The notes below the pieces were generated by a model. It was not told where the DNA came from and did not search any database. It saw only the letters and a list, made by a program, of their open reading frames with translations. Position numbers and translations under genes: made by a program. Positions 4,495 through 32,900 of a stretch of DNA of 64,000 nucleotides are shown in pieces. Position 1 is the stretch's first letter. The number at the start of each line of letters is the position of its first letter. Source of the DNA: Acholoe squamosa (taxonomy: Eukaryota; Annelida; Polychaeta; Phyllodocida; Polynoidae); the NCBI GenBank assembly GCA_949317995.1, contig OX439037.1:50874080-50938079 (forward strand), written 5' to 3'.

Positions 4495-4513
4495 GGTGCG
4501 GGCGCTCCCCTCT
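4495..4513 (-). promoter_or_regulatory. Candidate polypurine tract
   Basis: On the minus strand the bases just before the 3' LTR include GAGGGGAG, although the last ten bases before the LTR are GC-rich and not purely purine. It is the best candidate for plus-strand priming of this element. Confidence 0.4.
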
Positions 4514-6274: not shown

Positions 6275-6738
6275 TTAGCTGGGGAGCCAGCCAGCTCAAA
6301 TATTGATATTTACAAAAGACCTGGTGTTGAAAGCAGCACAAGATATAAGACTTGGATCTGGGTAATTTGATGGTGCTGATTACAGATCTGAGGTGCGTAT
6401 CTTGATATCTAGGTCGGAACAAGGTCAAAATAAAGGTCAAAGTTCACCATACTATTTCAATGGGTCCAAATGAACTTGGGATACATATGAATGGGGAATC
6501 CATCGTGCACTAAGGACCTCTGGTGTTAATGGGTGGAACAAAGCTCTCTGTCTGTTCTATATTAAATACCAGATCGTGACCTTTGACCTTTAATTTGACC
6601 TTGTTCCGACCTAGATATTAAGATACGCACCTTAGATCCATAATCAGCACCATCAAATTACCCAGATTCAAGTCTTATATATTGTGCTGCTTTCAACACC
6701 AGGTAATCGACCTGATCCCAGACTGGCTCCCCAACTAA
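6275..6738. mobile_element. MITE inserted in the envelope gene (464 bp)
   Basis: The ends TTAGCTGGGGAGCCAG and CTGGCTCCCCAACTAA are near-complementary, and long internal arms (around 6310-6440 and 6575-6710) are also inverted copies, including AAAGCAGCACAA / TTGTGCTGCTTT and the GACCTTGTTCCGACCTAGAT tract. The target duplication is short and ambiguous (TA or TAA). It separates the envelope ectodomain from its transmembrane segment. Confidence 0.85.
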
Positions 6739-7759
6739 CTGGTGAATAATCCCATAATGATTCAGTGACAAAATGGCCTCCACCACTCATGCCATCCAGA
6801 TCGGGCAATGCTGATCCGTCTTCCATTGCACTCACCAAATTCTTAAGATTGACAGCTGCTGGTGACTGTTGTATTCTAGCTCTGTGTTTCATTTTGGTCT
6901 TCACTAACTTTGGCAACACTTCATCCTGCAGTACCTCTACAGTTTCACCATTTAGTACGGCCTTTATCCATGTTAATTTCTTAACACTATTCATTTGTAG
7001 TAAGTCATTATTTACAAAAGTCACATTATTTTCCATGTTCACATGACCACACCCTGCCAAACTGTAAGGCATCCATGCCCCGGCAGTCATAAACGCGCAG
7101 TCACACCCAATGTTTAGTATGGCGTAATGATGCATGTTCACCTTAACAGGTGGGCTTGATTGACACATTAATTGACCTTGTATGTCGGGCCCCGATACTA
7201 AAGTACGTCCTTTACCCAATGCTATCGCGAATGAAGGAAAGCTTGGTTGAACTATGTAGCTGATCTCACATGTTTCTGCTATGGCCGTCTTGTCATTTCG
7301 TATCAATGCCGCCATGCACCCTCGTTCAGCTATCTTCCTCATGTGTGGAATATCTGGACAGACTGCTATTGAGTTGCCATGGCAACGCGCCCAATTCACC
7401 ACCGGCTCCGATATATAATATCGCCCATTCTTAGATATGGCTACTTCTGATGGTAATCCTTCTATTCTCGTCCCGTCAGCTTCTTTGTTGGCCAGACATA
7501 CTGGCACCGGAAACACCTTTACAGAGTACACACAGAATATGTGTTCCTCTGACACCACAGGAATCCGTATCTGCATCTTCACACGACCCTGGTGCTGATA
7601 TACTCGTACCACACTATTATCATAGTAATATTCAGGATCAGTAAAAGCGACCCTAAATCGCGGGTATGTAGCCTTCAAATATACTTCAGTGTTGACTATA
7701 GCTTCCTTCAAATCTTCTCTAGTGACCAATTTTGATGATAGTTTTCTTCGTGATGCCAA
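6668..7759 (-). CDS. env: Envelope fusion protein, ectodomain part, cut by a MITE
   Basis: This frame of 363 codons abuts the previous stop, begins with TTG rather than ATG, and is Cys-containing (for example an NIGCDCAFM pattern), consistent with the distal ectodomain of an F-like glycoprotein. Its last about 22 codons read into the inserted MITE at 6275-6738, so its natural C-terminus is missing. The frame junction at about 7760 is either a one-step frameshift, a splice or an inactivating indel. Confidence 0.65.
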   Translation of the reverse strand: MASRRKLSSKLVTREDLKEAIVNTEVYLKATYPRFRVAFTDPEYYYDNSVVRVYQHQGRVKMQIRIPVVSEEHIFCVYSVKVFPVPVCLANKEADGTRIEGLPSEVAISKNGRYYISEPVVNWARCHGNSIAVCPDIPHMRKIAERGCMAALIRNDKTAIAETCEISYIVQPSFPSFAIALGKGRTLVSGPDIQGQLMCQSSPPVKVNMHHYAILNIGCDCAFMTAGAWMPYSLAGCGHVNMENNVTFVNNDLLQMNSVKKLTWIKAVLNGETVEVLQDEVLPKLVKTKMKHRARIQQSPAAVNLKNLVSAMEDGSALPDLDGMSGGGHFVTESLWDYSPVSWGASLGSGRLPGVESSTIYKT

Positions 7760-7761
7760 TC

Positions 7762-8592
7762 TTACTTAGCTGCCATATCCTTTATCTCAATGAGTTCATT
7801 TAATAAGTGTATAATATACCCCCACTTGACCCTCGTCAACAGGCTTTCATGGTTGTATACAATGGATAATTCATATAATGCCACACTGTGCATAGTTTGA
7901 GTTCTTTCCAGCAACTTCCGTCTCTTTAATGATACCTTGGCCATTTCATACAACTGTAATTGTCTATCCGCCAACTCTCCCACTTCCGCCATGACTTCCT
8001 CCAAGCCATTGCTAGCACTTGTTGCCAATGTTTTAATAACATCACGTATCTTATAATACAATGTCTTCAGTAGTTGAATATCTTTCTCATTCCTGGCTAC
8101 ATCATCAGCTCTCCCAGTGCCAAAAATATAGTACGACAACTCTCCTATAATATTCAGACCTGGTATACCGGCTCTCTTAGATCTTTTGACTTTTTGTTGT
8201 TCAGGTATGTTTTCCATCAGCTTTTCCACTTCCTCTTCTCTGGCTTGTATCAGTTTTCTAATAATTTGATTCAACCATTCCTCTTTCTGTTTGATATTGT
8301 CACAGGTATTTTCAAATAGTAATGTTCTGTTGTGATGTTGAATATCACACATAACCTGCATATTTTTCACACATTGCTCATAAATACTTTCCATTTCCGG
8401 TTCTGGTAACCTATCTGGTATCCCTAACACAAACACTTGCGACACATGATTGTGCTCAGCCGTAGAAATGCGTCTGCCAGGTTGCAAAATGACACCCAAT
8501 TCGGCTCTCTCTAAAGTCTCGAAAGTGTGCCTTCCAGCATCAACCACACCCCACAAGGAACATAAGACACATAGTATAGTTAGCCACGCCAT
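7762..8592 (-). CDS. env: Envelope fusion protein, N-terminal part (F-like)
   Basis: The first ATG of the open frame is at 8592 and begins a hydrophobic signal peptide (MAWLTILCVLCSLWGVVDAG). About residue 140 there is a furin-type site (KRSKR) followed by a glycine-rich hydrophobic fusion-peptide-like segment ending in an FGTG motif. This arrangement is typical of baculovirus F proteins and errantivirus envelopes. Downstream is heptad-like helical sequence. The frame ends at TAA 7764-7762, and the next part of the protein continues in another frame from 7759. The element is an endogenous retroelement copy and I only describe its broken state. Confidence 0.75.
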   Translation of the reverse strand: MAWLTILCVLCSLWGVVDAGRHTFETLERAELGVILQPGRRISTAEHNHVSQVFVLGIPDRLPEPEMESIYEQCVKNMQVMCDIQHHNRTLLFENTCDNIKQKEEWLNQIIRKLIQAREEEVEKLMENIPEQQKVKRSKRAGIPGLNIIGELSYYIFGTGRADDVARNEKDIQLLKTLYYKIRDVIKTLATSASNGLEEVMAEVGELADRQLQLYEMAKVSLKRRKLLERTQTMHSVALYELSIVYNHESLLTRVKWGYIIHLLNELIEIKDMAAK

Positions 8593-8700
8593 TTTCTTCT
8601 TATTATGGCTTCTGGTTACAGTTCGAGTTTGGTTACTACGGCTCCTAACTGATCGCTCCTGGAAGTTTTTATTGGTCTTGAACACTTAATAAGCCCTATC

Positions 8701-9001
8701 GTGTCAGATAGTTCACAAGTTCATGACCTTTTTACCCCTCCTTGTATATATTTTCCCGTCAACCTGAACACGTGCGCCTTCCCTTCCTGTCTATCTGTAC
8801 GTCGTTTCCATCTGATAACACCAATTTATTGGATTGGAGTCTTTGTTTCAGCGACTCCTCCTAATGTGCCCTCAATTTTTTTTACTATAGTTTTCACTAT
8901 ATTTTGTTTTTCTTTTTATTTCTATTCCCCACCCCCTTGGTTAGATACCTAGAATTAAATTCTCAGTCGATGCTTGACTTCCCTCTCCTTCGCACTACAA
9001 A
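8701..9001 (+). promoter_or_regulatory. Divergent region between env and the antisense gene
   Basis: No coding region is seen. The segment is T/C-rich on the plus strand, with a TATA-like CTATATTTTG near 8899 and a pyrimidine-rich stretch just ahead of the ATG at 9002. It is the natural location for a promoter of the plus-strand gene, since the envelope frame ends at 8685 on the other strand. Promoter activity is an inference. Confidence 0.35.
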
Positions 9002-10257
9002 ATGGCTAGCTACTCCAGCGTTTCCATCAATGGCGCATTAGTCTATCTCCCGGTGGATCGTCTCCAGCCCGGCTTTACCTATGTCGTTGGCTGTAGAGAC
9101 CTGTCATCTGTTGACACTAATGTCGTTCCGTGCATGTTAATATGTACTGGACCGCGAGGTGCTACATTGCCTTCACATACTCTCATCCGAGATCATCTAC
9201 GCTTGGCATGTCATATGACTGATATGACATTGCGAGTCATTCACTTGGATGGGATGCCTGATCCCAACTACCGCTTGCAGTCAACTGTCGCTGTTCCACC
9301 TATTCCTGCGCCTGTCTATCAGCCTGCTTATGTCAACATCACACCTCCCTCAGTCAACTTGACCACTCCATTCATGCCACCCTGGAATCCCACACAGATG
9401 TCGCCCCTGGTTGTGCGTCCCGTCTACAGCGCCATTGTACCTGCTACCTCTACCTCAAGTTCGCCGCCCACCTTCACTTCTGATGTAGTAACGACTTCCA
9501 CTACAACCCTTCCTCTACTTGTGGATACCTCCTACCAGTATCCTCTTCCTGCCGCCTTCGCTGTTCCTTCAACTCCTCGTCTACTACCACCCCGACATCA
9601 CTCTTCATATGTGGACTACAGCGTGCTTTCTCACACTCCTGCTGCTTCAGGTGTTTCGTCCTCTCATCACTCATTATTGCTAGCCACCACTACACCACTG
9701 ACGTCCAGAACAACTCTATCTTCCAATCCCATTTATTCCACCGCGACTTCTCACCACTTCTCCACCAGCACCACTACTTCCGGTTCACTTCCGGCTACTT
9801 CTTCACTATTGATGCCTCAACTTCCCATCCGGACCACTCCAGCTGCAGAAGCCCGCGTCACATAGGCTCCTAGATTTTCGCCTTCCAGCTTGCATACACC
9901 CGCGCTGGTCCTGACCTCCTCTACTTCCGGTCAGCTTATCTCGTCTTCCTCCACTTCAATCTCGGCAGCTTCACTTCCACTACTTCCAGTGATGTCGCCC
10001 TCTTTCTGGAGTACTCTGGCTTTCTCACCTGAACGTCCGCCCTTTTCACCTTTAACCTGTCACTCCAGCACCATGGCCTCTTCCTCACGGCTATCTCACA
10101 GTTCATCTATCATATCCCTCCTAACGTCTTCATCTGCTACCAGTGCACGACATCATCCATACCAGCCTCCTGCCAGACCACAAACCTCCCAGTCTTCTAA
10201 TCCTGGAGGTCCTGTCCTTCCTACCTTGAATTCTCCAGCTTCTACCCTCACGCAGAA
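9002..10257 (+). CDS. Antisense (plus-strand) gene inside the element, exon 1
   Basis: This frame runs opposite to gag-pol-env. The ATG at 9002 has a good context (CAAAATGG). The frame is open to 10261 except for one TAG at 9863-9865, and the segments on both sides are in the same frame and share the same composition. Residues 1-95 look globular; the rest is rich in Ser, Thr and Pro. A strong donor (GAA|GTAAGTAT) lies at 10257/10258, just before the frame would end. On the minus strand this region has no substantial ORF. No family is recognised; a transcriptional or glycosylated low-complexity protein are both possible. Confidence 0.6.
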
Positions 10258-10842
10258 GTAAGTATATTTCCCTAGTGATTCATACCTTGATTCCTAGAGA
10301 CGCTCACTTCGTTCTTGTAATAAGATACTATACACATATTTTCTTTTAATTTTAAAATATATGCATAAGCTGACTCTATAAAGTCGCTGAACTCCTCTGA
10401 TTTGTGAGTCGTGGCGATCACATTCACAGTCCCAGGTATATAACTGATCTCATTAACACACCCATATGGCTGAATTTTATGTGTCCTAGTACCTTCTTAA
10501 AAAAGAATTTCACTCACAGTTTTTGAATATATCTACAGCTATAGACACTGTATTTCATTTCTCAGAGTCTGGGTTTCTTCAATAATTAAACAATTATAGG
10601 CTCTGGTTCTTTAACAGAATGCCTTACTTCTGGACAAATATATCCTTTAAATTTAGGTCTCTTAATTATGGACCTTGTTACCGGAGTCATTCTATGTGTG
10701 GCGCGACTGTGGTCCTGCTGGTTCCGACTAGTGTTTCCATTCTCCCTTAGACAACTTATAAGGTGCCCCATAGTGGTTGCCTCCTGTATGTGATGCACTT
10801 CTCTCTCTTTTCTCATATACCTGCTTTATTTACTATCTTCAG

Positions 10843-10897
10843 TTCTTCTCCCACTTCATCTGCTGATGATGATGCCTCTACTCCTACTAGTCCTTAA
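10843..10897 (+). CDS. Antisense gene, exon 2 (predicted)
   Basis: A pyrimidine-rich acceptor (TTACTATCTTCAG) ends at 10842. Joining exon 1 (phase 2) to 10843 keeps the frame and yields another 17 codons of the same Ser/Pro/Thr/Asp-rich composition before a TAA at 10895-10897. The fit of phase, composition and stop supports the intron 10258-10842. A further donor-like CAG|GTATGT follows at about 10910 in the 3' untranslated part. Confidence 0.5.
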
Positions 10898-11470
10898 GAT
10901 CTTCACTTCAGGTATGTATTTCTAATATATTTTATATTGAATGCATCCTAAATGGATCCGACCCATTACAATTTTCTACAAACTGTGTTAGATGGCTAAG
11001 TCTTATCCATAGAGTAGGGTGTATCTGAGACTTAATATCTCTACCCTCTCTACAGTGGGCGATGACTCCTTTCCTTCAGTATATTATAACTGATCTCCAT
11101 TAATTCATCTCAACCGCTATGAACCTTCCGTTGTCTATGATCCAGGATTTTCCACTAGAACTCATGTTTATAGTCTATCTAAACTGTTGACTATGTTATA
11201 CTGCTGTTGTTATGTCCGCATCGCATGCTAGTTGTTCTGTCTTGTTAAACTTTTGAGTGCAGTCTGGGTCTGTCGTTCTCCGATGTCTGTATAGCTGGGG
11301 TTCCACTCCTACACTGCCAACATCCTTGCTTGCCATTGCATCTTATCTCTTTCTTTACCTGTGCATGTCTGCTCTCTCACCCCCCCCCCCTTTTTCACCT
11401 GTAGCTAGGCTATTTATATATATATGCATGTTTCAGTATCCAACGCTCCCCCCCCCTTTTTCGCACGTGT
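10898..11470. other. Non-coding segment of the giant element
   Basis: There is no convincing ORF on either strand. It contains C-runs at about 11380 and 11450 and acceptor-like CTCTCTACAG near 11053, which could belong to additional untranslated exons of the antisense transcript. Confidence 0.4.
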
Positions 11471-11860
11471 TCATTCTCCCGATGGCTCTGTTTCTGCGTC
11501 ATCATTCCCACACAATCTTTTCTGTCTCTTTCTTCCTATACCCCATTCTTTCCACACATCTGGGGTTGCAAATACTGCCATGGTTATTTGTTGTATTTTC
11601 CATGCAGTATTTTTACTTTCCTCAGGTAATTTTCTGACCCAAGTTTTCACTTCACCTTTCATGCCCCACAATAATAATGCCACATATTCCATTTCCCCTA
11701 GATCATATATTTTCTTAATTAGGTCCATGTCGTAGAAATATTCTTCTATCTTTTCTCCTGGTGCTCCTCTAAATGTAGGTGGTGTTATATTAATACCTGC
11801 CATTTTGTACATTTCTTTGACCAACCACAACGTTCCCCTAACAGGTATTGTATTCTGCAT
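11471..11860 (-). CDS. Second capsid-like (Gag CA) ORF downstream of pol
   Basis: It starts at ATG 11860 and encodes 129 residues. The pattern ITPPTFRGAPGEKIEEYF, then a helix ending LLLWGMKGEVKTWVRKLPE, resembles the Ty3/Arc-type capsid N-lobe and parallels the element's own Gag (PSFTGEPGEDYQRYF, then LKKGASKWMDGIPE). It is in the same frame as the preceding 160-codon ORF, separated by one TAA. It could be a duplicated capsid domain that alters particle assembly, or a relic of a second element. The similarity is by pattern only and should be tested by profile search. Confidence 0.6.
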   Translation of the reverse strand: MQNTIPVRGTLWLVKEMYKMAGINITPPTFRGAPGEKIEEYFYDMDLIKKIYDLGEMEYVALLLWGMKGEVKTWVRKLPEESKNTAWKIQQITMAVFATPDVWKEWGIGRKRQKRLCGNDDAETEPSGE

Positions 11861-11905
11861 TTGTACAGACCGTCTTTTCTCCCTATCAAATCGTATTCTT
11901 ACTAA

Positions 11906-12388
11906 TTATATTTCTCGAGGTTTCTCAGTTGCATCCTCTTCCTCCAGGGTCGTCTCATTGTCCATAGCCCTGGATGTTAATACTCCCTGGGTAATATGCT
12001 TTCCCTTTTGCTTTAGTTTAAACATTTCCCAAGTTTCATCTCTTTGTCTACACTGCCTGCATCGTTTCCCTCTACTAGTCTTGCGATGCCTCCTACACTT
12101 TCTCGAGAAAAAGAATGCATTAGTCACACTCCCTACTCCATATTTAAAGTGATGTTTGTTTACTTGTTCCCTCAAATACCTTGGCAATCTCGCGATGTCC
12201 AATTTCAATTTTGATATTTTCTGCATCACTATGTCCTGTAGCGTCGCCCCATTGTATCTAAATATCTTTGGCAATGAATATCCAAATCCATATATGGCAT
12301 CCAGCGCGTCTTCTACCTGTTGTCCTCTATATCTTCCTGCCTTCACTATAGATGGTGCTCTCTTCCCTGTATCCTCACTTGTGGACAT
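11906..12388 (-). CDS. Basic accessory ORF, TAATG-coupled to the finger ORF
   Basis: It starts at an ATG whose A is the last base of the preceding TAA stop, and encodes 160 residues. There is a basic Cys/Arg cluster (RKCRRHRKTSRGKRCRQCRQR) near residue 110 that could be a nuclear-localisation or RNA-binding patch. It ends at a TAA, after which the same frame stays open for 15 codons and runs into the capsid-like ORF at 11860. Function unknown. Confidence 0.6.
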   Translation of the reverse strand: MSTSEDTGKRAPSIVKAGRYRGQQVEDALDAIYGFGYSLPKIFRYNGATLQDIVMQKISKLKLDIARLPRYLREQVNKHHFKYGVGSVTNAFFFSRKCRRHRKTSRGKRCRQCRQRDETWEMFKLKQKGKHITQGVLTSRAMDNETTLEEEDATEKPREI

Positions 12389-13044
12389 TATATGAGATGT
12401 CTTATCCCATGCACCTGTTCCAGGTGTTTGGCCGCTCCTGCCGCTGTTGCTGTCGTTCTGCCGCAGATGTGACAGAGCCTTGATGTTATCTGCCGTCTAC
12501 TGTAATACTCCTCTATCAATATATCGTCCAACTTTACTGACGTGTCCAGCACAAATTCGTCATCTTTACTATAAAATATAGTTGGTTCGGTCTGTGTTGC
12601 TGTTTCGTTGGTCTGGACCTCTCTCTTAATTCTACCACCGGTGCTTTGTAGAGTGGCGTCTAACAGCCAGCTCCATTCATTTGGTCCCACAGTGATATCA
12701 CGTATGTCGTCCCATATATTCCCCTGTCTGTTTACCAGGACCTCGGCTTGAGCTGCTTCCACCACCTGTATTGGCTCTTGCGTTGAGCTTGGCTGGCCTG
12801 ACGTTGAAGTCGCACCAAATCCTTGATCTTTTGTTTCTGTTGTTGTTGAACTTGCTGCAGACACTGTGCTCCCTTCATTGTAAGTGCTATGGCAATAGTT
12901 ATCTTGAATCATCCACGTATTATAGTATTGTTGATATTGCTGTTCTCCAACACTACCGTACCAGCTATCTGCCATTCGTCCATCAACACCTGCTGTTGGC
13001 TGTGAGGTTTTATCTCGTCCCTCGTTGTGCGCGCACTGCCACAT
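12388..13044 (-). CDS. Accessory ORF with a C-terminal C2H2 finger
   Basis: It starts at a real ATG (13044) and encodes 218 residues. The N-terminal 90 residues are Gln/Ser/Tyr-rich and low complexity. The C-terminus contains C-x2-C-x12-H-x4-H (CHICGRTTATA... to HLEQVH), a C2H2-type zinc finger. The TAA stop overlaps the ATG of the next ORF in a TAATG arrangement, suggesting coupled translation. It lies downstream of pol, where complex retroviruses carry regulatory genes. A nucleic-acid-binding or regulatory role is an inference. Confidence 0.65.
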   Translation of the reverse strand: MWQCAHNEGRDKTSQPTAGVDGRMADSWYGSVGEQQYQQYYNTWMIQDNYCHSTYNEGSTVSAASSTTTETKDQGFGATSTSGQPSSTQEPIQVVEAAQAEVLVNRQGNIWDDIRDITVGPNEWSWLLDATLQSTGGRIKREVQTNETATQTEPTIFYSKDDEFVLDTSVKLDDILIEEYYSRRQITSRLCHICGRTTATAAGAAKHLEQVHGIRHLI

Positions 13045-13294
13045 CCTGATGCGTCTCCTCCTGCATATACCTGTTGCATTGGCCCCCCCCCCCTCTTTTC
13101 CTACCTTGCCCTACTTTTCCCCTTTCTTTGTGTATCGTCCTCCTTTCCGTCTACCTTCATGAGTCAGCTTGACCTGCTCCTCCGGGCGGCCCCTCCCCCT
13201 TCAGCACCTGCATCACCCCTCCATCCCCTCATAGCAACTCACGTCCATACTACAGGATTATCGCCCATCCTGTAGTATCCCGTCTAAGCTCACC

Positions 13295-13651
13295 CTACTC
13301 TCCATTGCTGGACAAGCTGAGCTCCTCTCTGCCCCTCCTGTTATGCTTAAAAATCGGCCCCTTTGGAATGATGTGTTCACTGCTAGATTCCTCACTCATA
13401 ATGGCCCCCGCAGCCAATTGCTCCTTCCTATCTCTCTGTCTCCTCCTTCTCTCAGCTCTATCCTCTCTTTCTTTTCTTCTCCGTCTTCTCTCTATCTCTT
13501 CTTTCTCTCTCTCTTCCTCCAACTGCCTCTTCACCTCAACATTCCTCACTCTACCCTTCTTTTTCTCTTCATTATCCTGTTTCCGGTCATTTTCGACCCT
13601 ACCAATGTCACTATCCTGTAACCCTTTCTTTTTACACCAATTATCGATCAC
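13295..13651 (-). CDS. Lys/Glu/Arg-rich ORF overlapping the pol stop
   Basis: This 118-codon frame overlaps the pol TGA by four bases and begins with GTG rather than ATG, so a frameshifted extension of Pol is as likely as an independent protein. The product is dominated by a highly charged E/K/R helix with RRRRRK and ERRRRQRDRKE clusters, suggestive of a coiled coil or nucleic-acid binding. No family is recognised. Confidence 0.5.
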   Translation of the reverse strand: MIDNWCKKKGLQDSDIGRVENDRKQDNEEKKKGRVRNVEVKRQLEEEREKEEIERRRRRKEREDRAERRRRQRDRKEQLAAGAIMSEESSSEHIIPKGPIFKHNRRGREELSLSSNGE

Positions 13652-16600
13652 AGTTCCTGTCTGTGCTTCTTCCGGCTAGCTTGCCGCACTATTCCACTTG
13701 CCTCATTGTCAATTTCCTGCATGGGCGCGCGCGGTCCAGCTCCGGCCACCCCTCCCTCTATCTCATGCGCACTTTTGTCGTCCTCTGACGTTTTCAATTC
13801 GTCCTCTCTATCAGCGCCCGCTAGCGCTTTATCCTCCAGACCAGATGAAGGATGTTCTGCCTCAGTCACCCCTTTAGGGTCCTCACGTTCTATGTCCTCC
13901 TTTTCCACCTCTGATTCCACTTCCGGTTTATCCACTTCCACCGTCCTCTCATCTTTGGCTACCCCTTTGTCATTTTCATCCTCCCCTTTGTATGCTCTCT
14001 TTAATTTATTCACATTTACTAAGTGAGGTATCTCCTTGCCTGTTTTCACTGCTCTCAGCCTCACCCTGTTATCCCCAACTACTTCTACTATCCTATGTGG
14101 CCCTGTGTACCTGCCAGCAAACTTCGATGTATTATTTACCGCGCATTTCGGATCATAATAATATACCCACTCCCCTTCTATAAAAGATACAGGCCGCGCC
14201 CGTCCATCCAGTCTGTGCCTGAGCTGCTCCTCATACCTAGCAGTATGAGCATTGGCCGCCTGCTGCAATAACTGTATACTATGGTTGGTCCTTATAAACC
14301 AATCCCTCTCAGATGGCACTTTAGGCATTGGCCTCTCTTCAGCAAAAGACATGGCCACCGGATCCCTCCCAAACTGCAATGTATATGGTGAAAACCCCGT
14401 CCTCATACTAATGTTGGAGCGCACCATCCATAATGCAATGGGTAACAGCTCTGGCCAGTGTTCATGGTCCTCGGTCACATAGCATCCTATCGTGTCCTCC
14501 AATGATTTATGCAATCTTTCAACCCTGGCATTTCCGGTTGGATTTCTGGATGACGTAAACCTCTGTTTGGTGGATAGCCTAGCCGTAACCTCACGAAAAA
14601 CCTGACCCATATATGTGGACCCTCTGTCGCTGCATAGCACTTCCACTTTGCCGTACCTACACACAATTTCCCGTAGAAACACCCCAGCTGCCGTGTGCGC
14701 AGTCGTGTCTTTAGTGCAAAATGCCTCTGGCCATCCTGTCAGAAGATCTATGAAGGTCATGATATATTTATAACCCTCCTTGGACCTACGTAACGGCCCA
14801 ACAAAATCTGTCTGTATCACCTGCCACGGATAATCCGGCGTATCCCATGACCTTGCCTTAGCCCTAAACTGAGGTGCTCTTTTTCTCAACGCGCACCTTT
14901 CACATAGCCTCACATACCTGGCTATGTCCACCATCATATTTTTCCAATAAAACCGAGCCTGTACTTTTGTATTCAGCGCCACTGTTCCCACATGTCCACC
15001 GCACATGATATCATCATGCATAAGATAGAGCACTCTGCTCACCATAGCCTTAGGTACCACTATTCTTGGGTTCAAGTCTGCTATAAGTCCACCTCTTTTC
15101 CTAGCTGGTTTTATATACTTGCATAATAATCCATCCTTCATACCCATGAAATCAGCATTATGTAAAATCCCTCGCGCCTTTTCCTCATCCACCAGCAATT
15201 CATCTCCCGCCAAATATCTCATCATCCCCCTGCAGAATCCATCCTTCCACTGTTCCCGAATGAAGGTTTCCCTATCCAATTCCTCCCCCTCAAGTTCCAT
15301 CATGAGTAACTCACAGCCCACCTCAGGCTCAAACTCCCCCGACTCCTCGCCAGGTGTATCCTGTCCCACTGCCAATGGCACTCTGGATATAAAATCCGGC
15401 AGGTAGTGAGTAGCTCCCGGCTCATACTTGATTTCATAGTCAAAGTCAGTCATAGCTAATCCCCATCTAGTCAGTCTCTTGGATGGAGCCTTACTGGCTT
15501 GCTGAAGCAAAGGTATTAATGGTTGATGATCCGTAATTATCGTGATCTTGGCTCCCGTCAGCATATCCTCAAATTTCTTCAATACTCGTATAACAGCTAG
15601 CCCTTCCTTCTCTGTTATAGTGTAGTTTCTTTCAGCCTTGGTAAATGTATACCCATAATATGTCACCGGTCTTAGCAATCCGTCCCTCTTCACACAGATG
15701 GCCGCTCCACACGCACCATCCGAAGCATCCGTTAGAATATAAAAGTGACCCCCGATCTCTGGATGTACCAATAATGGTGTGCTTGCTAATGCTGTTTGTA
15801 TTTTCTTAAATGACACCTCACACTCATCCGTCCACTTAAATGGCACCTTGATCTTTAACAAATTATTCAGAGGCATCGACAAAACAGCATAGTTAGGAAT
15901 AAAACTCCTATAATAATTACAAAGCCCCAGAAAGGATCTAGTTGTATGTTCATTATAAGGTCTCCCAAACTCTTGTACCTTTCTGACGACTTTAGACTGC
16001 ATCTGAACTCCTTCTGCATTAATAATGTGTCCCAAAAACTTAATTTCTGCTTTACCCCACTCACACTTTTCCGGCTTGACTGTTAAACCTGCTCTGCCCA
16101 AAGCTGCCAATACCCTGCCTACATTAGTAATGTGGCTGTTCACATCCGGGTCAAAAATAATGATATCGTCTAGGTAGGCCAGACAAGTACGTGGTATTAA
16201 TCCTCCTAGCGCTAATGACATAATCTTGGTAAACTGCCATGGACTTTGTTTCATACCAAACGGCATCCTCGTCCATTGCCAGACCCCCGAGGGTGACTCA
16301 AATGCTGAATATTGTCTGCTGTCATGATGTAAGTCGCACTGATGATACCCACTGAGCAAATCCATTGCCGTAAAGATTATAGGTTTTCTGTATGCCATAT
16401 ATAAAAACATGCTTCTGGCTGTGGGCATAGGATATGTATCATCCGCCGTAATAAGATTCAGCATGCGATAGTCTGTGCATAACCTAGCCTTTCCATCCTT
16501 CTTCTGCACCACCACCAACGGACTTCTCCAGACACTCTCACTGGGCTCAATAATTCCCAACTTCAATAATTCCCTCACCTGCTCATCAATAATGTCCATT

Positions 16601-17724
16601 TTCTGAGGAGAATACCTGTATGGTCGCGCCATACACGGACCTTTGGATTCATCGACCCTTATTTTCATTGGAGCTAATGAACAATGACCCAACTCTTTCA
16701 TAGAAAATGCTATAGTGTCCATGTTGACCACCAGCATCTCTCTGAATACCATCTGTTCCTCCAGTGTCATCATAGTGTCACCCAAATCTAGGTCCCTGAT
16801 CTTCTCAATTTTATCCAGCCTCTCCTGCTCACTTAAGGTAGAAACACCACTCCCACTACCACTGTTCCGAGGGTTCTGCCGTTCCTTCAACCCTCCTCGA
16901 GCATCTTGACCCTTCCCTCGCCGTTCTTCATCATATCGTGCCAAAATCCCACGAGCCTCATCCTTTTTATCCCTGCCAATGTCAGCTGTGTCAATTACCT
17001 CTAGCAAATTAAGTTCTGGTTCTTCTATTTCTTCTGCATATGCTATAACCTCAGTCGTATCCACATACACCTGCCTGTCTGAGAGATTAGCTATTCTCAT
17101 ATACCATTTCTTCCCCACATAGTTCACCGCACCATCCGCAGCTATCACCGCCAAATTAGATGGTCTCAGCAAGACCGTTCTTTTGGTCCTCTCAGCTGCA
17201 ACATCCCATCCTTTCACTGTCACCAATCTTTCTTCCCATGGGTCCAAAATCGCTGCTACTTCAATTGAGACCGGATCCTCAGTAAAGAGACGTACCTTTC
17301 CGTCTACAGCTACAATCTGTGCCCTTGCGTCAGTGAGAAAATTACGTCCCAGCACAATATCATAGGCCAGTGAGTCCACCACATTAAAATCATAATATAT
17401 ACAAGCACCGTCCATAAAACACTGTAGTCGCACCGTCTCATAAACCTGTAATGATGTCTTGTCCCCCAGACGCACTTTCCCCAATTGAGATGGTTGCCTG
17501 TCCCAAATTGCTCTCTCGCTTATACTACTTACAACTGTCCGCGCTATAAAACAATCAGACGCGCCCGTGTCCACTAAACATTTATATGTATTCCCATCGA
17601 TGGTACACTGAACCAACCATGGCGCTTTGTCTTTTGATCCCCTATCTCCCGACCCATTCCCTGATATTAAATTTAATTCTGGGGTAGGAATGAGCCGTTG
17701 TGCCCGTTTCCCGGCCTGCGTGCA
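13648..17724 (-). CDS. pol: Pol polyprotein: protease, reverse transcriptase, RNase H, integrase
   Basis: The frame is open from 17724, just after a TGA, and has no ATG near its start, so it is presumably translated as a Gag fusion. Domains in order: aspartic protease with DTGAS (about 17580-17560); reverse transcriptase with the YLDD active site (about 16175); RNase H with TDASDGA (about 15730) and TDHQPL; integrase with an HHCC zinc domain and a catalytic D-D-E core (D near 14810, D near 14630, E near 14515); a GPY/F-like module (YTGPHRIVEVV); and a long acidic tail. All catalytic residues I looked for are present. The domain order with integrase after RNase H places it with Ty3/mdg4 elements. 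Confidence 0.95.
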   Translation of the reverse strand, partial: CTQAGKRAQRLIPTPELNLISGNGSGDRGSKDKAPWLVQCTIDGNTYKCLVDTGASDCFIARTVVSSISERAIWDRQPSQLGKVRLGDKTSLQVYETVRLQCFMDGACIYYDFNVVDSLAYDIVLGRNFLTDARAQIVAVDGKVRLFTEDPVSIEVAAILDPWEERLVTVKGWDVAAERTKRTVLLRPSNLAVIAADGAVNYVGKKWYMRIANLSDRQVYVDTTEVIAYAEEIEEPELNLLEVIDTADIGRDKKDEARGILARYDEERRGKGQDARGGLKERQNPRNSGSGSGVSTLSEQERLDKIEKIRDLDLGDTMMTLEEQMVFREMLVVNMDTIAFSMKELGHCSLAPMKIRVDESKGPCMARPYRYSPQKMDIIDEQVRELLKLGIIEPSESVWRSPLVVVQKKDGKARLCTDYRMLNLITADDTYPMPTARSMFLYMAYRKPIIFTAMDLLSGYHQCDLHHDSRQYSAFESPSGVWQWTRMPFGMKQSPWQFTKIMSLALGGLIPRTCLAYLDDIIIFDPDVNSHITNVGRVLAALGRAGLTVKPEKCEWGKAEIKFLGHIINAEGVQMQSKVVRKVQEFGRPYNEHTTRSFLGLCNYYRSFIPNYAVLSMPLNNLLKIKVPFKWTDECEVSFKKIQTALASTPLLVHPEIGGHFYILTDASDGACGAAICVKRDGLLRPVTYYGYTFTKAERNYTITEKEGLAVIRVLKKFEDMLTGAKITIITDHQPLIPLLQQASKAPSKRLTRWGLAMTDFDYEIKYEPGATHYLPDFISRVPLAVGQDTPGEESGEFEPEVGCELLMMELEGEELDRETFIREQWKDGFCRGMMRYLAGDELLVDEEKARGILHNADFMGMKDGLLCKYIKPARKRGGLIADLNPRIVVPKAMVSRVLYLMHDDIMCGGHVGTVALNTKVQARFYWKNMMVDIARYVRLCERCALRKRAPQFRAKARSWDTPDYPWQVIQTDFVGPLRRSKEGYKYIMTFIDLLTGWPEAFCTKDTTAHTAAGVFLREIVCRYGKVEVLCSDRGSTYMGQVFREVTARLSTKQRFTSSRNPTGNARVERLHKSLEDTIGCYVTEDHEHWPELLPIALWMVRSNISMRTGFSPYTLQFGRDPVAMSFAEERPMPKVPSERDWFIRTNHSIQLLQQAANAHTARYEEQLRHRLDGRARPVSFIEGEWVYYYDPKCAVNNTSKFAGRYTGPHRIVEVVGDNRVRLRAVKTGKEIPHLVNVNKLKRAYKGEDENDKGVAKDERTVEVDKPEVESEVEKEDIEREDPKGVTEAEHPSSGLEDKALAGADREDELKTSEDDKSAHEIEGGVAGAGPRAPMQEIDNEASGIVRQASRKKHRQEL

Positions 17725-17870
17725 TCATTTCCCTGATCTCGTTGGTCCCTGTTCTGCTGAGGAGATGATAACTGATCCCTGTACTTCTTCAAAAACGTGC
17801 ACTCCTCCATAGAATGTGTGGTAGAATCATGAATCAAACAATAAGTCGCTCCTCCTCCCTTCTGACTCTC
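17673..17870 (-). CDS. Zinc-knuckle segment in a shifted frame between gag and pol
   Basis: On the minus strand a frame distinct from both gag and pol encodes a C-x2-H-x4-H-x4-C motif (codons at 17840 to 17799) followed by a Lys/Gln/Arg/Asn-rich stretch, ending at a TAA at 17675-17673. Similar CHHC knuckles are known between Gag and protease in some Ty3 elements. It overlaps the end of gag and the start of the open pol frame, so expressing the whole polyprotein requires two frame changes within about 200 bp. Sequencing or copying errors in the source element are the alternative. Confidence 0.65.
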   Translation of the reverse strand, partial: ESQKGGGATYCLIHDSTTHSMEECTFLKKYRDQLSSPQQNRDQRDQGNDARRPGNGHNGSFLPQN

Positions 17871-19803
17871 CCATCATCCTAGCATACTCCTGTGCTCTTC
17901 TCTGACCCTTATCATCCCCTTGTTGGCCTTGCCTGCTTCCTCCTGTGTATCTCTGTCCCTGAAACCTGTTATTGAAATATTGAGACGCGTTATACTGATT
18001 TCCACCGCGTCCCCCTTGATAATTCCATCCTCGGCCTCCACCGCCTGCACCAAACTGCCTGTTCTGACCATATGCTCCCATGCCAGTCCCTCTGCCCGCC
18101 GGCGCCTTATACTGCCCTTGTGAATTATCACCCCTTCCAGCATATTGTCCCTGTTGATTCTCCCGTCCATATTCCATCTCTCTGAGTCCCCTTCTATATT
18201 CCATAGTGCACATCTCCACCACCGCTTTAGTTTGTTCCCTAGCATATTCCTTAGGATCAAACTGATCTTCTCCACATGCTCCATCCCGAGCCCCTTCAGA
18301 CTCTAGCATGTGTAACTGCGCCACACCTTTGGAGGTCCTCCCTTTTTCCACATTCTCCCAATAAGACACCAGTCTGAGAGCCTCCTCAAAAGAATCAGCG
18401 TTGTGTTTCATCAGATCTTTATCAATGGGTGGAAGCAAACCCCCCACAAAGACTGACAGCTTGATGACATCAGGAATGTCCAACTCATCATATTCCTTTA
18501 TTTTCAATGCAAAGTCCCAAACCGACTGTCCCTTCTCCTGCTTCAGACAGTGCAAATCCCTATGTTTCTGCCACAGTGGTCTTTTGTCCTCAAAAACCCT
18601 TTTCACTATAGCCACCACTTTGTCCAAAGTATCCTTTTCCCCTTCTGGAATACCATCCATCCATTTCGATGCCCCTTTCTTCAGCCCCAACTTTGCATAT
18701 TCAAGATGCTGATCTGGAGACCATCCAATTAGCTTTTGCATTCCATTCAATTCCTTAAAATATCTCTGATAATCCTCCCCAGGTTCCCCCGTGAAGGATG
18801 GTAGCTTAACATTCAGACTGGGTGCCATGTCGTCGTCCTCAAAACCAACAATAGGTGCAATATCCCCGTCTACTTGTCCCTCTTCACCTTGGTCCACCAA
18901 TGAGCCCTCCTCACTATCGTCCCCTTGTATATCAGGCTTAACACCTCCAGCGATGGAGCCCTCGGCGGCTTCCCCCTGGGCCTCCCTTTCTTTCAGTCGT
19001 CTTCTTTCTTCGTCCGCCCTCTGAACGTACCAATCCTCCCAGTCACCTGAAACATCAGCCTGAAGATGACTATTTAGAACATTCTCTAAATGCCCCTCAT
19101 CTGTAGTACGACCCGTACTATTGCCTGAGCGGATTCTCTCAGTTACCTTTCTCCAATTTACTGTATCGCTCAAAAACCTCTCCCTGTGTGCCACGCGCTC
19201 CCGTTCTATCTCCTGCCTCCCGAGCAGCTCCTCCCTATCAATGGCCTGCCGATATATCCGTTCCCGTTCCAATATGGCCTTCCCTTTCTCTATGCTTTGT
19301 CGCACCCTAGTATTAGTGTTCTGCAGACCTGTTATAACGTCATCCACCCTTGTTTTACTCACAGACTCCCCTAGACGACTGCCAATCCCCTCACCTGTAC
19401 TGATTGGTGTATTACAGACTGGCCGATCCTGATCAGCTCGCACACCTTCACCCCGACCCACCAAGTCCTTGTCACTCAACTTCCTTCCGTCTTCAACAAT
19501 CACCACGAAACCGGAGGGCAATAATGGTGTAATTCCCCCTTGCAAATCACCTAATTGCTGACCACTATTTTCCAATCCTCTTCCCAGCGCCCCTTGTCTG
19601 ATGTCCACGTCTTGTCCTGACGCCACCACTCCCGTGGATGCCCCGTCTAATGGATTATTCTCCCGAGGTGCGTCCCCTTCATTCTCATGACCATCCTTTG
19701 TTCCATTCTCATCCACCCGTTCGTCCTCATTTATTGGCTCAATCAACCCCAATGACGTTGCTATTGCTTCAAAGTCCAAATCCACATCTCCAATATCCAC
19801 CAC
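17827..19803 (-). CDS. gag: Gag polyprotein (capsid domain, RGG-rich tail)
   Basis: The open frame is 658 codons. Its first codon is GTG, and it is in frame with the upstream ORF through one TGA. Residues about 1-300 are acidic with charged coiled-coil-like stretches (many E/R). Residues about 330-480 match the Ty3 capsid (retrotransposon gag) pattern: a PSFTGEPGEDYQRYF start, then a run of helices with W, L and KG.KW spacing. Residues about 560-645 are rich in Gly, Gln, Arg and Tyr, resembling RNA-binding RGG tails. The usual zinc knuckle is not in this frame; it lies immediately downstream in another frame (17799-17840). Confidence 0.88.
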   Translation of the reverse strand: MVDIGDVDLDFEAIATSLGLIEPINEDERVDENGTKDGHENEGDAPRENNPLDGASTGVVASGQDVDIRQGALGRGLENSGQQLGDLQGGITPLLPSGFVVIVEDGRKLSDKDLVGRGEGVRADQDRPVCNTPISTGEGIGSRLGESVSKTRVDDVITGLQNTNTRVRQSIEKGKAILERERIYRQAIDREELLGRQEIERERVAHRERFLSDTVNWRKVTERIRSGNSTGRTTDEGHLENVLNSHLQADVSGDWEDWYVQRADEERRRLKEREAQGEAAEGSIAGGVKPDIQGDDSEEGSLVDQGEEGQVDGDIAPIVGFEDDDMAPSLNVKLPSFTGEPGEDYQRYFKELNGMQKLIGWSPDQHLEYAKLGLKKGASKWMDGIPEGEKDTLDKVVAIVKRVFEDKRPLWQKHRDLHCLKQEKGQSVWDFALKIKEYDELDIPDVIKLSVFVGGLLPPIDKDLMKHNADSFEEALRLVSYWENVEKGRTSKGVAQLHMLESEGARDGACGEDQFDPKEYAREQTKAVVEMCTMEYRRGLREMEYGRENQQGQYAGRGDNSQGQYKAPAGRGTGMGAYGQNRQFGAGGGGRGWNYQGGRGGNQYNASQYFNNRFQGQRYTGGSRQGQQGDDKGQRRAQEYARMMGESEGRRSDLLFDS

Positions 19804-19827
19804 ATCCCCTTCAGATGCGCGTCTGAC

Positions 19828-20565
19828 TCATCCCTGGTCCGCTGGACCCTCAAACTCAAGGCACCTAGGAGTAGCCTTGCTAAAATTAATACTGGAGCTC
19901 CTAGTAATGGGCGTCGAAAAATACTTATAATTCACTAATCTGTCTCCTGTCGTCCACCCCTTGCAGAGATTATCAGGCCGTCCCCCTGTATCGGCACTTA
20001 CTGTGTGCTCCTGAACCGCCGCCTGCTGCCCATCACTAGAAATATCAGCCCTGGTCTCCGACTCTGCCGCAGATGACTGATGCTCGTTCTCCACTCCCAA
20101 TACTGAGAATGGTTCAGAGGTATTGTCCACTACCACCGACTCTGCTGGTTCAGAATCAGCCGCCGTAGACAATTGTAGGCTAGACGTCCCCCCAGACTTG
20201 GGATCCCTTTGAGACGATGCCCACTCCTCCCCTGACCGAGCCACAGGGAATCCAATCTCTCTAGACACCTCCTCTCCAGGTAATAGCACCACTTGTGACC
20301 TGGGTCCTAATTGTACATGCACATGTGTGTGATCCGATCTAAGAGTGACACGTGATTGATCAGTTCCCGCCTCACTCACTCCGGATCTTCCACCCTGTCC
20401 CTCTGCTACACCACTATGTGCTATTGCCGCATCCCCAGGCAATGTGCGCGCTGCAGGTATGATAGTATAGACTTCCACACCCTCACTACTGTCAGTGTGT
20501 GGCGATGCCGCTGAGTCACATCCAGCGTCTGAGCTGTTAGGTATCGGGTACGGCGAGCCGCTCAT
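19828..20565 (-). CDS. N-terminal ORF ahead of gag, same frame as gag
   Basis: The first ATG is at 20565, 26 bases beyond the primer-binding site, giving about 245 residues. The composition is Ser/Thr/Glu/Gly-rich and looks disordered; no domain is recognised. The frame ends at a TGA (19830-19828) and then continues open for eight codons into the gag frame, so the product is either a separate leader protein or the N-terminus of a longer Gag read through or interrupted at that stop. Because the LTRs are nearly identical, long-term decay is not the obvious explanation. The alternative is a simple nonsense mutation. Confidence 0.7.
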   Translation of the reverse strand: MSGSPYPIPNSSDAGCDSAASPHTDSSEGVEVYTIIPAARTLPGDAAIAHSGVAEGQGGRSGVSEAGTDQSRVTLRSDHTHVHVQLGPRSQVVLLPGEEVSREIGFPVARSGEEWASSQRDPKSGGTSSLQLSTAADSEPAESVVVDNTSEPFSVLGVENEHQSSAAESETRADISSDGQQAAVQEHTVSADTGGRPDNLCKGWTTGDRLVNYKYFSTPITRSSSINFSKATPRCLEFEGPADQG

Positions 20566-20590
20566 CAGTACAATGATAAGCCCAACCACT

Positions 20591-20602
20591 AATTCTCCAC
20601 CA
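20591..20602 (-). promoter_or_regulatory. Primer-binding site of the giant element
   Basis: Two bases after the 5' LTR the minus strand reads TGGTGGAGAATT. TGG followed by an acceptor-stem complement is the expected start of a tRNA primer-binding site. The first ten bases are the same as in the primer site of the miniature element at 31828-31841. I cannot name the primer tRNA. Confidence 0.7.
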
Positions 20603-20604
20603 TC

Positions 20605-21325
20605 TGGGCTGTGTGGGTTGTGTTTATGTGTATATTAATGTAGTCTCATTTGTGTAGTTATTATCAGCTCACTCCACTGATCTCACGTATTGGGAAGACT
20701 AACTCTAGTGGTATGATGTTGGCCTAGCCCATTCTTTTAACCAACACCAAGACGCCGATACAAGTCACCATTTATTGTTCACACAGTATTCACAGTTACA
20801 GTTGTTTGGTAATTCCATTCAGGTCTATACAGCTTCAACGACATCAGTCTATTCACACAAGCAGTTCATGTTCCAACAATCCAGTGCTTCTAGAGAGGTA
20901 TAGGTGCCATAGAGATCCTGCTTAATCCGTTCTTACATTGGCTAAGTGTAATACTAGTTATTAAACAGCTTCATCCTCGTCTACTCCAGGAGTATGTGTT
21001 GCTTCCTCAACCGCTCTCACCATACTAACTCCTCACCTGTCTCTCACTAACCCATTACACCTCCCAGACGCTATGTACTTGGCTTACACGTATCTTTTCC
21101 CCCTACAGAATCCTCCTGACCAGATCTCGTCGACTCCATCGCCGTCTGCAGCATTCCACAGCTACCATAAACTCTAGCTACCATAAACCCTACACAGGAC
21201 TCCTATAGCACTCTCTCATATAGCATACAATAAATACATACATAACATAACATACAATAAATACATACATAAGTGTACCCTGTTATACCCGTTCATTATA
21301 ATTATTGGTTATTGATGACAAAACA
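20605..21325 (-). repeat. 5' LTR of the giant Ty3 element
   Basis: Read on the minus strand it begins TGTTTTGTCATCAATAACC and ends CACACAGCCCA. It is the upstream LTR because the primer-binding site and gag lie directly on its lower-coordinate side. It differs from the other LTR at two positions that I found: T for C in CAGACG(C/T)CATG... near 21070, and A for G in the duplicated CATACAATAAATAC tract near 21249. Confidence 0.93.
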
Positions 21326-29900: not shown

Positions 29901-32900
29901 TGTAACCTGTGTGACAAAGAAGCACATACTTTTTATACAGAAAACAAGAATAAGGGCAGCAGTAGTCACTTTTTTAAAGAGCATGTGGAAATCTGGACAG
30001 ACATATTCAAATCAATGCTGACAAAATATAACCGACAGTCCAAGAAATTCTAAGAGATGCTAGCAATTTAGTGTGAAGCTGCTACAATGTACTATCCACT
30101 GAAATAGCCTTTGTACCGACTTACAGAGTTAATAAAACCACACCGTAAACCTTGGGGGCAATGTATGATGGTAAGCGGGGGGGGGTCTGGTTCACGTATA
30201 AGCCGCAGCTTGCTCTTGTGACTTTATGGCCCCCTACCGTAGGGGACATGACATGGAGACATCACTGAATTTTAGCTATACATTACAAGCCAAGTAGACT
30301 TAATCAATTGATAAGTTCAGGAGTATCAGTAACTGCCCCTAAATGATGGGTTGAGACATTTTCCTTGTGTTATTCACACTATCATAAATTGACCTACTTT
30401 TTGTTGTTTTGTAAAATTTCGTCTTCAGCCATTTCTACAAGCAGATCCAAGTTGTGGAGTAGTTCCGGCATCTCAAACGCTCGCTTCCCCTGAGAGTCCT
30501 TCATGGCATCCATGATATCGTCCTCATCTGGTTTGTCATGTTTGTTACTGATGGCATGGTAGCCTGAGAGGATGCGCTTTTCTTTACCAGTCATATCAAT
30601 GACTTTCACCTTTGAAAGTTCACTCTGTACAACTGTCCGCTTCTTTCCACCAGTTGCAATAACTTCCTCAGCTGTCTTGTAGATATATTTGGGTTTTGCT
30701 TGCTTTCTGGCTTCAGCCTGGAATGATAACAAATAGATATCATTAGGATGAGTTATCTCCAATCTAATGAGAAAAGGATACAAGACATGAGGGAAAATAT
30801 GATTAAACCTTAGAGGAATAGATTGAGGCCAGAGGCCAAAGGGCAAGGCTTGCCTTGAAACTACACCAAAGTTGGAATACCGTATTCCTTCTAAAGAGTG
30901 CATATATGCGGTGAAAACTTAAATCACAAATTAATCATGAAGGTCAAGGCTAGGCCATAGGCCTATGGTGTCATTGACGTCTATGTTCTATGGCATCGTC
31001 TATACATGTACAGTTTACATTGATATTGACTCATCTTCCATTAAACTGTTAACCTTATATTACAGATGGTGTATTAATCGGAAAAAAACTTACTCCTCCT
31101 TTCTTCCACTGTTGTAGCTTTTCTTTGAACTGTTTCTCCTCCTCCTCATCTGAATCAGGCTTCACTGGAAAATCCTGCTTAGAACGATCTGTCCTCTCTG
31201 AGCCATAGAAGCCAATAGCAGCTCGGCCTTTACGTAGGTTAGCTTCAACTGGGGTGCTGATACCTTGTAGTGTCTTACCGATACCTGAACCCTCTTTGTA
31301 GCCCATCTGCATTACAAACAGCCAACAATGAACATAAAAGCATGTACAATATTTCCTAGTAGACTTACTAACATTTGTACTTCGTTCAATGAATTAGGTT
31401 CCTTATTCTGGGCTACCGTAAACTCCCGCGTGTAGAGGTCGGCGGAAAACGTCTTTGGAGAAACCGGGACTCGAACCCGGGACCCTCCAACTTCGAAGCG
31501 GAAGCTCTTCCTCTGAGCTACTTCCCCTGACCTGACGTTCTCTACCTTCCACCTACGCCTGGATCGGTGGGATACCGACAGGGGACATGTGACTACCCGG
31601 TGACCCGCCTCTGCAGGTCGGCCACCCTGGGCACGGGGACTCACATAGTCACGTTCCCCTACACAGCCCCCAACCAGCTTCGACCACCGAATTAACCAGC
31701 ACTGAGTCACACACAGGGAAGATGGGACCTGTGGGCACCCCAGCGCTAGCAGGTCGAAGCGCTTGCTGTATCACACCAACCCAGGAACCGAGTTCCGTAG
31801 GCCCCCCTCACGCGGGTCAGGACTACTCGGTTTCTCCACCAGTGTAGAGGTCGGCGGAAAACGTCTTTGGAGAAACCGGGACTCGAACCCGGGACCCTCC
31901 AACTTCGAAGCGGAAGCTCTTCTTCTGAGCTACTTCCCCTGACCTGACGTTCTCTACCTTCCACCTACGCCTGGATCGGTGTGATACCGACAGGTGACAT
32001 GTGACTACCCGGTGACCCGCCTCTGCAGGTCGGCCACCCTGGGCACGGGGACTCACAGTCACGTTCCCCTACACGCGTATAAGACGCGTCCTCTACGCCA
32101 AACAAAATGCTAGGGGGTCTTATAGCTTTCTCTCAAGTTGGGTGTGCGTCTTATACGAGGGGTAATTTTACTATAGAAATGTACTAATCAGCCTTAAAAT
32201 GTGCGTCTTGTACGCGAAAATGCATGTGCTGAGTTTGGGGTGCGTCTTATACGCGCAGCGCGTCTTCTACGCGGGAGTTTATGGTATTTAAAGTTATTAT
32301 ATCAGGAAACCATGCCAATTGGCATGCTGTATGTAGTGACTGTGAATGGATTCTAGCGGCCAGGGACTTACCTTCTCCATAAGCTTTTTTCCAATACCCT
32401 TGGTATGCATCTCCCAGCTACCGATACCAGTGCTGCCGCCAGCCTGCTGACTGTTAAATTACAAGTTGTTAAATGTTAGAGTATATATAAATATACTATT
32501 TCAGTTATGTTATCTTATCATTACAGTATAGTTGTTGGCAACAGTCTATCGGGCATATTTTCCAAATCCAAAAACCAGCCATCGCACATAGATACACACG
32601 TTGATCTAGTAGTATATGGATATGAGGAAAATCCTGTCATGAACTTACAATTGTGCTGTAGTTGGAAATCTTGTACTTAAGTTTATACCTAAGAATTTGG
32701 CGCTGCCGCCAAAGGGAAACCGTCCTGGGTTTTTGACAAATCAGCAGGGAGGCATTACTGTCTGTATACAGTCTGTAACATTCACAGAGGGAGGTACCCA
32801 TCATGGTACTGTGGTATGGTTATCACCTCCAGGTTATAGATATGTATATAGTACTCGAATACAAAGCTGCTCTTTTTGAAGACCTTGTTTGGTAAATTAT

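Follow-up and report, generated by a model that had tools for sequence, protein, structure and literature searches.

Helenus-type TRIMs of Acholoe squamosa carry LTR tRNA sequences that covary with their primer-binding sites and probably supply their own reverse-transcription primer

In the usual view, LTR retroelements and retroviruses other than the self-primed ones rely on a tRNA of the host to prime reverse transcription. In elements of the Tf1 type, the element's own RNA folds back and its 5′ end serves as the primer. Mauriceville-type retroplasmids, which are mitochondrial and have neither LTRs nor annealing to a primer-binding site (PBS), possess a 3′ tRNA-like CCA end that is linked to reverse transcription. 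Helenus elements are TRIMs with tRNA-derived LTRs; the animal members have 4-bp target-site duplications (TSDs) and are likely mobilised by Gypsy, and tRNA primers were named for the groups described (Kojima 2024, PMC10886601). According to that paper, the PBS could not be found to be complementary to the LTR tRNA, and the tRNA does not contribute to initiation. A 2026 meeting report adds that Helenus employs small-RNA sequences for transcription (PMC12859917, cited in part). Cassandra and Ajax also hold a Pol III gene sequence within a TRIM LTR, in their case 5S rRNA; the Ajax PBS fits tRNA-Leu, and the sections of PMC10886601 used here describe neither element as having an LTR RNA that matches its PBS. 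TRIMs without a clear PBS are reported from bivalves in the cited portion of PMC6934838. None of the open-licence papers found by our searches describes, in its title or the opening of its abstract, an LTR element that is matched with a primer tRNA of its own.

The window, as we call the whole stretch of 64,000 nucleotides of A. squamosa DNA that was analysed, contains a 643-bp TRIM (31431..32073, minus strand; family F1 below), whose limits follow from its sequence, repeats, LTR alignment, TSD and empty site. Repeat search and LTR alignment place the 5′ LTR (231 bp) at 31843..32073 (sense 32073->31843) and the 3′ LTR (233 bp) at 31431..31663 (sense 31663->31431). The LTRs have TG...CA ends, are 97.9% identical and enclose an internal region of 179 bp (31842->31664). 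CGCG TSDs are found on the left (31427..31430) and on the right (32074..32077). The insertion interrupts one terminal inverted repeat (TIR) of a MITE-like element (31414..32286, with TIR arms at 31414-31431 and 32269-32286 recognised as an inverted repeat); since the opposite arm, 32269-32286, is intact, the empty site is readable, and the size, ends and TSD given in the original prediction are all borne out. The MITE-like element itself contains repeated GCGTCTTATACGCG motifs, and the segment 1846-2072 is 87.7% like its part 32074-32289. Before the 3′ LTR, at the place of a polypurine tract, lies a G-rich stretch (31664..31675, minus strand) that is a weak candidate because it contains pyrimidines; the sequence is GGTTGGGGGCTG in the window TRIM, and other families have GGGAGGAG. 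Neither AATAAA nor TATA was found within the TRIM, and the list of open reading frames, which has a 150-aa floor, includes none for it.

With a length below 1000 bp, a tRNA in both LTRs, a PBS after the 5′ LTR and a CGCG TSD, the element is, judged from its sequence, a Helenus TRIM by definition. It shares with the described members a size mostly under 1 kb, an LTR tRNA with A and B boxes, a PBS, a 4-bp TSD and the occurrence of several families per genome (PMC10886601, in the part cited). Cassandra and retrozymes had originally been named as the closest parallels; Helenus is closer. At Rfam gathering scores, the window has only two tRNA matches and neither 5S rRNA nor hammerhead, so that the element differs from Cassandra and Ajax in the first respect and from retrozymes, with their LTR hammerhead, in the second. 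It also differs from Helenus as published, in the part cited here, in that the tail of the LTR tRNA complements the PBS and covaries with it in six families.

The tRNA-like sequences (minus strand) lie at 31868..31939 in the 5′ LTR and at 31456..31527 in the 3′ LTR. Both were called by ARAGORN and by Rfam RF00005, at 48.1 and 50.1 bits respectively against a gathering score of 29, in line with the tRNA sequence that had been predicted. Each LTR has a single B box, GGTTCGAGTCC, and a single Pol III terminator-like TTTT located 6 nt downstream of the tRNA (31858..31861, element position 213, and 31446..31449, element position 625; minus strand). These features had been anticipated for both LTRs, as had an A box; however, the A-box form TAGCTCAGAGG is present in the 3′ LTR only, with one change in the 5′ LTR (AGAAG). 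ARAGORN labelled both tRNAs 'Ser cga'. A normal serine tRNA was ruled out, as the long variable arm is missing, and G3:U70, A73 and the GGGGAAGTAGCTCAG start resemble tRNA-Ala according to what we take to be its identity rules. In the alignment of genomic elements described below (A1), 97.5% of cells are paired in the acceptor stem, 94.4% in the D stem, 95.1% in the T stem and 67.7% in the anticodon stem; one anticodon-stem pair is broken in 44 of the 45 distinct rows. The predicted anticodons vary between and within families (CGA, TGA, CAA, GAA, GCA, TTG and others). By these predicted pairings, the tRNA has retained the half on which 3′ processing and CCA addition depend and has lost the half that decodes. 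At least one LTR with a predicted tRNA was found in each of 40 loci, which, together with the broken anticodon pair and the varying anticodons, rules out the single capture of a decoding tRNA gene. Mismatch rates within families are low throughout the tRNA, a comparison that is weak taken alone.

The PBS, TGGTGGAGAAACCG, begins one base past the 5′ LTR (31828..31841, sense 31841->31828, minus strand) and is complementary at every position to CGGTTTCTCCA plus CCA, a 14/14 match to the 3′ end of the element's own tRNA. The CCA is absent from the DNA, while the 11 tail nucleotides are encoded and all agree. This is the only 14-mer match within the window, and the predicted 14-nt complementarity to a tRNA end with a non-encoded CCA therefore stands; over 18 nt, the agreement is 15/18. 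The first 10 nt of the PBS also occur at 20602(-) and 9767(-), the former being the PBS of a Gypsy element. The match exceeds what chance would give, because the 11 encoded letters are exact and because sister families have it too, with compensatory changes.

Of 2444 first-look candidates in the genome (1.48 Gb, 63 contigs), 40 were scored and yielded 44 matches; the 43 of these that are near full length form a copy set picked without regard to the PBS. The PBS type was that of the copy's own tRNA in 43/43: 28 copies combine an F1 tail with an F1-type PBS and 15 an F2 tail with an F2-type PBS, with none crossed. Apart from scattered changes, the tail and PBS are TTTCTCCA and TGGTGGAGAAACCG in F1 and TTTCCCTA and TGGTAGGGAAACCG in F2. 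The match to the own tail is 14/14 in 29 of the 43 copies (17 F1, 12 F2), and the PBS starts with TGG, the complement of CCA, in 42. TTTT follows the tRNA in 41 copies (both exceptions are in L028) as well as in all 48 of the LTR-pair elements considered below. TSDs were found for 26/43 copies, 25 of 4 bp and one of 5 bp, and the 17 TSD-less copies include tandem arrays with common LTRs. In these arrays (L028 and L042), the TRIM is repeated as LTR-internal-LTR-internal-LTR, with the LTRs common to neighbours.

The pattern B-box...LTR-end...TGGT, with the F1 and F2 PBSs subtracted, has 214 matches in the genome versus 7 for a reversed control. More families were sought in a sample of 30 matches fetched from the 100 listed of these 214, plus 16 further stretches. 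The sample includes F3 (tail TGTTTCCA, PBS TGGTGGAAACACCG), F4 (tail CGAGACTA, PBS TGGTAGTCTCGCGG), F5 (tail TTGGGATA, PBS TGGTATCCCAACCG) and F6 (tail TGTCTCCA, PBS TGGTGGAGACACCG). F4 has a different tRNA body, predicted as Gln-TTG in several copies, and is based on partly decayed copies with own matches of 12-13/14; F6 is represented by two copies only, one of them discordant. F1, F2 and F3 have the LTR sequence around the tRNA in common, so their 3′ ends appear to have been altered in place together with the PBS. The 5′ strand of the acceptor stem differs among families (GGGGAAG, GGGGATG, GTCCCGA, GGTCTCG), and thus acceptor stem and PBS change jointly.

For quantification, 48 LTR-pair elements were kept. 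Each has LTRs of 100-320 bp, TG/CA ends and a total length of at most 900 bp, with TGG close to the end of the LTR and a B box located 5′ of the tail; they are hence a selected set, in which the tail end was placed by script where the PBS fit best. L005 and L008, which overlap L042, were removed before counting, as were internal matches shorter than 120 nt. In an earlier set of pattern rows, 15/34 matched at fewer than 12 of 14 positions; many of these look like decayed copies or like solo LTRs in which TGGT occurs by chance, and four (L080, L089, L091 and L094) each hold a separate element with 14/14. Among the 48 elements, a 4-bp TSD was found for 29 and a 5-bp TSD for one, and the script found none for 18.

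The PBS was nearest to the type of the element's own tail in 46/48 elements (F1 21/22, F2 12/12, F3 6/6, F4 3/3, F5 3/3, F6 1/2), and the own match is complete (14/14) in 29, reaches 13 or more in 41 and 12 or more in 46. Own matches covered 643 of 672 letters, versus a mean of 540.3 and a maximum of 579 in 10,000 permutations. Among the six family types, as set from these copies, 8 of the 11 tail positions vary, and all of them form Watson-Crick pairs with the PBS. When tails are assigned to PBSs correctly the score is 84/84, and the runner-up of the 720 assignments has 82, so that the total score alone separates close families poorly. In A1 (48 rows, 45 distinct), 96.4% of the cells of the tail-PBS helix pair, 65 are double-change cells and 8 of the 11 encoded pairs are changed on both sides. 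The covariation was 0.437, versus 0.138 after shuffling and at most 0.166 for slid helices; since the rows are related and partly pattern-selected, these counts are not probabilities, and the independent changes are few, roughly one set per family. The covariation across copies that had been proposed as a check was thus found. On this comparison of sequences, the LTR tRNA and the PBS co-evolve and the matched Helenus variant is new. The self-matched tail and PBS contradict the conclusion stated for the Helenus group, and, if the LTR tRNA is the primer, the element offers a natural system in which primer-PBS co-evolution is visible.

We consider it probable that this Helenus-type TRIM supplies its own reverse-transcription primer. 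The original prediction had suggested that the element may use a Pol III-type LTR promoter and supply, or at least derive from, its own primer; the concordance of all 43 copies and the covariation in six families favour this, with transcription and priming as its conditional steps, and on the copies looked at the suggestion withstood the refutation test set with it. Pol III would produce a pre-tRNA-like RNA from the LTR unit and terminate at TTTT. The 3′ end of this RNA would then be matured by RNase Z and the CCA-adding enzyme, a step for which the acceptor and T arms should be enough and decoding dispensable; the CCA-ended 3′ ends expected from LTR tRNAs are TTTCTCCACCA, TTTCCCTACCA, GAGACTACCA and GGGATACCA. 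The CCA end would anneal to the PBS on a read-through transcript serving as template, and the annealed tRNA would prime a Gypsy-type reverse transcriptase acting in trans. Plus-strand synthesis copies the primer 3′ end into the new PBS, and the PBS would therefore be rewritten in each round and tail and PBS would stay matched. In a single case inspected by eye (L109), 17 of 18 nt of the PBS agree with the element's own F4 tRNA before the family sequence resumes, which is consistent with copying of the primer over the customary 18 nt. Such a primer would be element-made, as in self-priming Tf1-type elements, and its tRNA-like CCA end would be tied to reverse transcription, as in Mauriceville-type retroplasmids. 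A primer gene beside the primed site would explain how a parasite of a parasite can avoid having to compete for the primers of the host.

It is unlikely, in our estimate, that the primers are instead ordinary host tRNAs, from which the LTR tRNAs were copied or on which they converged without ever priming. This possibility draws on host tRNA-Ala-AGC (120 pattern matches), whose 3′ end, CCCGGGTTCTCCA, fits the F1 PBS at 13/14 positions and at 16/18 over 18 nt (15/18 for the own tRNA), and on the Gypsy PBS in the window, which opens with the same 10 nt. In addition, tRNA primers are named for described Helenus groups in the cited part of PMC10886601. The F2 PBS, however, fits tRNA-Ala at only 11/14 positions where it is intact, with a predicted duplex of -14.6 kcal/mol versus -26.2 kcal/mol for its own tRNA (F1: -22.1 and -26.1 kcal/mol, respectively). 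Host tRNA-Ala as sole primer was thus rejected as insufficient, the PBSs of F4 and F5 diverging further by eye. The common LTR surroundings of F1-F3, with 3′ ends changed in place along with the PBS, also argue against host primers. A large tandem array of near-identical tRNA-Ala-AGC genes, ~290-810 bp apart, was noted on contig C12 (C12:51451347-51482602, L060-L072); it contains most of the tRNA-Ala-AGC matches among the 100 listed of 120.

Host genes were also searched for with a B box plus the tail of F2, F3, F4 or F5. The F2 search used the B box and the tail followed by C, G or T, with at least 8 encoded letters matched; a gene with another B box, or with the TRIM-like base after the tail (A for F2), would escape it. 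No host tRNA gene with the F2 3′ end was found among the 7 sites looked at of 8 in the genome: five derive from TRIMs (L122, L125, L126, L127 and a site within L039), and two have a common flank and no ARAGORN tRNA and resemble another repeat. The F3 tail has 37 genome sites, 21 with a TRIM-type trailer, 2 at junction sites (see below) and 14 of neither kind. Of the three F4-tail sites, one is in the 3′ LTR of L112, one is equally spaced in an apparent duplicate of L112 and the third was not attributed to a TRIM. The F5 tail has nine sites, no two with identical matched letters; one has a TRIM trailer and 8 were not attributed to TRIMs. Sites not attributed to TRIMs (F3 14/37, F5 8/9, F4 1/3, F2 1/8) are compatible with host genes as the source of primers. 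The search for a cognate host tRNA that had been called for was thus answered differently by family, with tRNA-Ala at 13/14 for F1 and none at 7 of the 8 sites for F2.

Self-priming has a further alternative, to which we assign a small probability, in which the tail and PBS pair as a hairpin in the element RNA (for packaging, as a dimer or as a Tf1-like fold-back) and the tRNA is a promoter only. The two are indeed 11-nt inverted repeats ~26-31 nt apart (trailers of 22-27), and LTR elements including Tf1 self-prime (PMC6934838, in the part cited). Yet the encoded hairpin comprises 11 pairs, whereas the PBS matches the unencoded CCA in 42/43 copies, and CCA is encoded at that place by none of the 48 trailers. 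This match points to a matured tRNA 3′ end and distinguishes the element from the Tf1 type. Moreover, the minimum-energy fold of element positions 135-250 leaves tail and PBS unpaired with each other. The tail is instead paired with the tRNA's anticodon side and the fold is not a cloverleaf, which also counts against the self-priming reading. In F1, the first 10 PBS letters pair in this fold with the trailer TTTTCCGCCG, a hairpin that could hide the PBS in the template RNA. This pairing (31828-31861 (-), element 213-246) may be a switch that conceals the T-run together with the PBS; judged by eye, it is not preserved in the F2 letters.

A few elements depart from concordance or match poorly. 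L106 matches its own tail at 10/14 positions and L101, with a decayed PBS, at 11/14; L114 combines an F6 tail with an F3-like PBS and has LTRs of 86% identity. L083 has an F1-type tail in the 5′ LTR, an F3 PBS and an F3-type 3′ LTR, and is therefore probably a recombinant. This mosaic, the tandem LTR arrays L028 and L042 and the 48 junction sites described next would suit the view that the match has no function and arose incidentally, through template switching or through recombination of LTRs between families. We hold this to be highly improbable: shuffled tails and PBSs would be expected, yet 46/48 elements are concordant, and the unencoded CCA is matched.

The junction pattern B box-N10-ACCA-N-TGTA, corresponding to tRNA tail, CCA and reversed LTR end, occurs at 48 genome sites and, as a reversed-pattern control, at none. 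Among the 13 sites with letters listed, the tails include those of F1 and F6 and new ones. L125, which is flanked by 4-bp ATCT TSDs, consists of LTR start, U3, tRNA, the tail CGGTTTCCCTA, CCA and C, and continues with a reversed LTR end and then a reversed LTR start. L126 consists of the internal region, 3′ LTR, tail, CCA, T and a reversed LTR end, followed by other sequence. Both are consistent with the trace expected of a cDNA still attached to an LTR tRNA that ends in CCA and carries U3. Because the tail is identical to the complement of the PBS, template switching within these 11 shared nucleotides would yield the same junction, which makes these sites consistent with such joining and not proof of it. 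A more tentative proposal, which we regard as possible and favour less than not, is that the genomic RNA ends in its own 3′ LTR tRNA through an RNase Z cut and CCA addition, with U3 attached, so that template and primer would be one RNA or a pair. L125 and L126 resemble genomic records of such an RNA, and the 48 sites fit its junction pattern. If true, an RNA ending in its own tRNA would define a class of LTR elements independent of host primer tRNAs. More tRNA tails were seen at junction sites, namely GATCCTA and the His-like CACGGCA (C1:21726546, C2:23596922, C2:70492802), hinting at additional self-matched families.

The window also contains a 17.5-kb autonomous Gypsy-type element (3774..21325, minus strand; TSD GTAT, PBS TGGTGGAGAATTAG) with LTR copies that are 99.7% identical and with reverse transcriptase, RNase H and integrase domains. 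It is a candidate, by sequence features, for the type of partner that would mobilise the TRIM. The first 10 nt of its PBS are those of the F1 TRIM PBS; this and the 4-bp length of its TSD are circumstantial likenesses. ARAGORN found no tRNA in it. Two of its ORFs (6668-8685) lie at the place of env, and the one that was scanned had no Pfam match. Two related reverse-transcriptase ORFs at 23140-24768 (+) and 48885-50219 (+) appear Penelope-like by eye, the first with a weak Pfam RVT_1 match. Finally, two long tandem-repeat arrays occupy 33009-34480 and 39661-42100.
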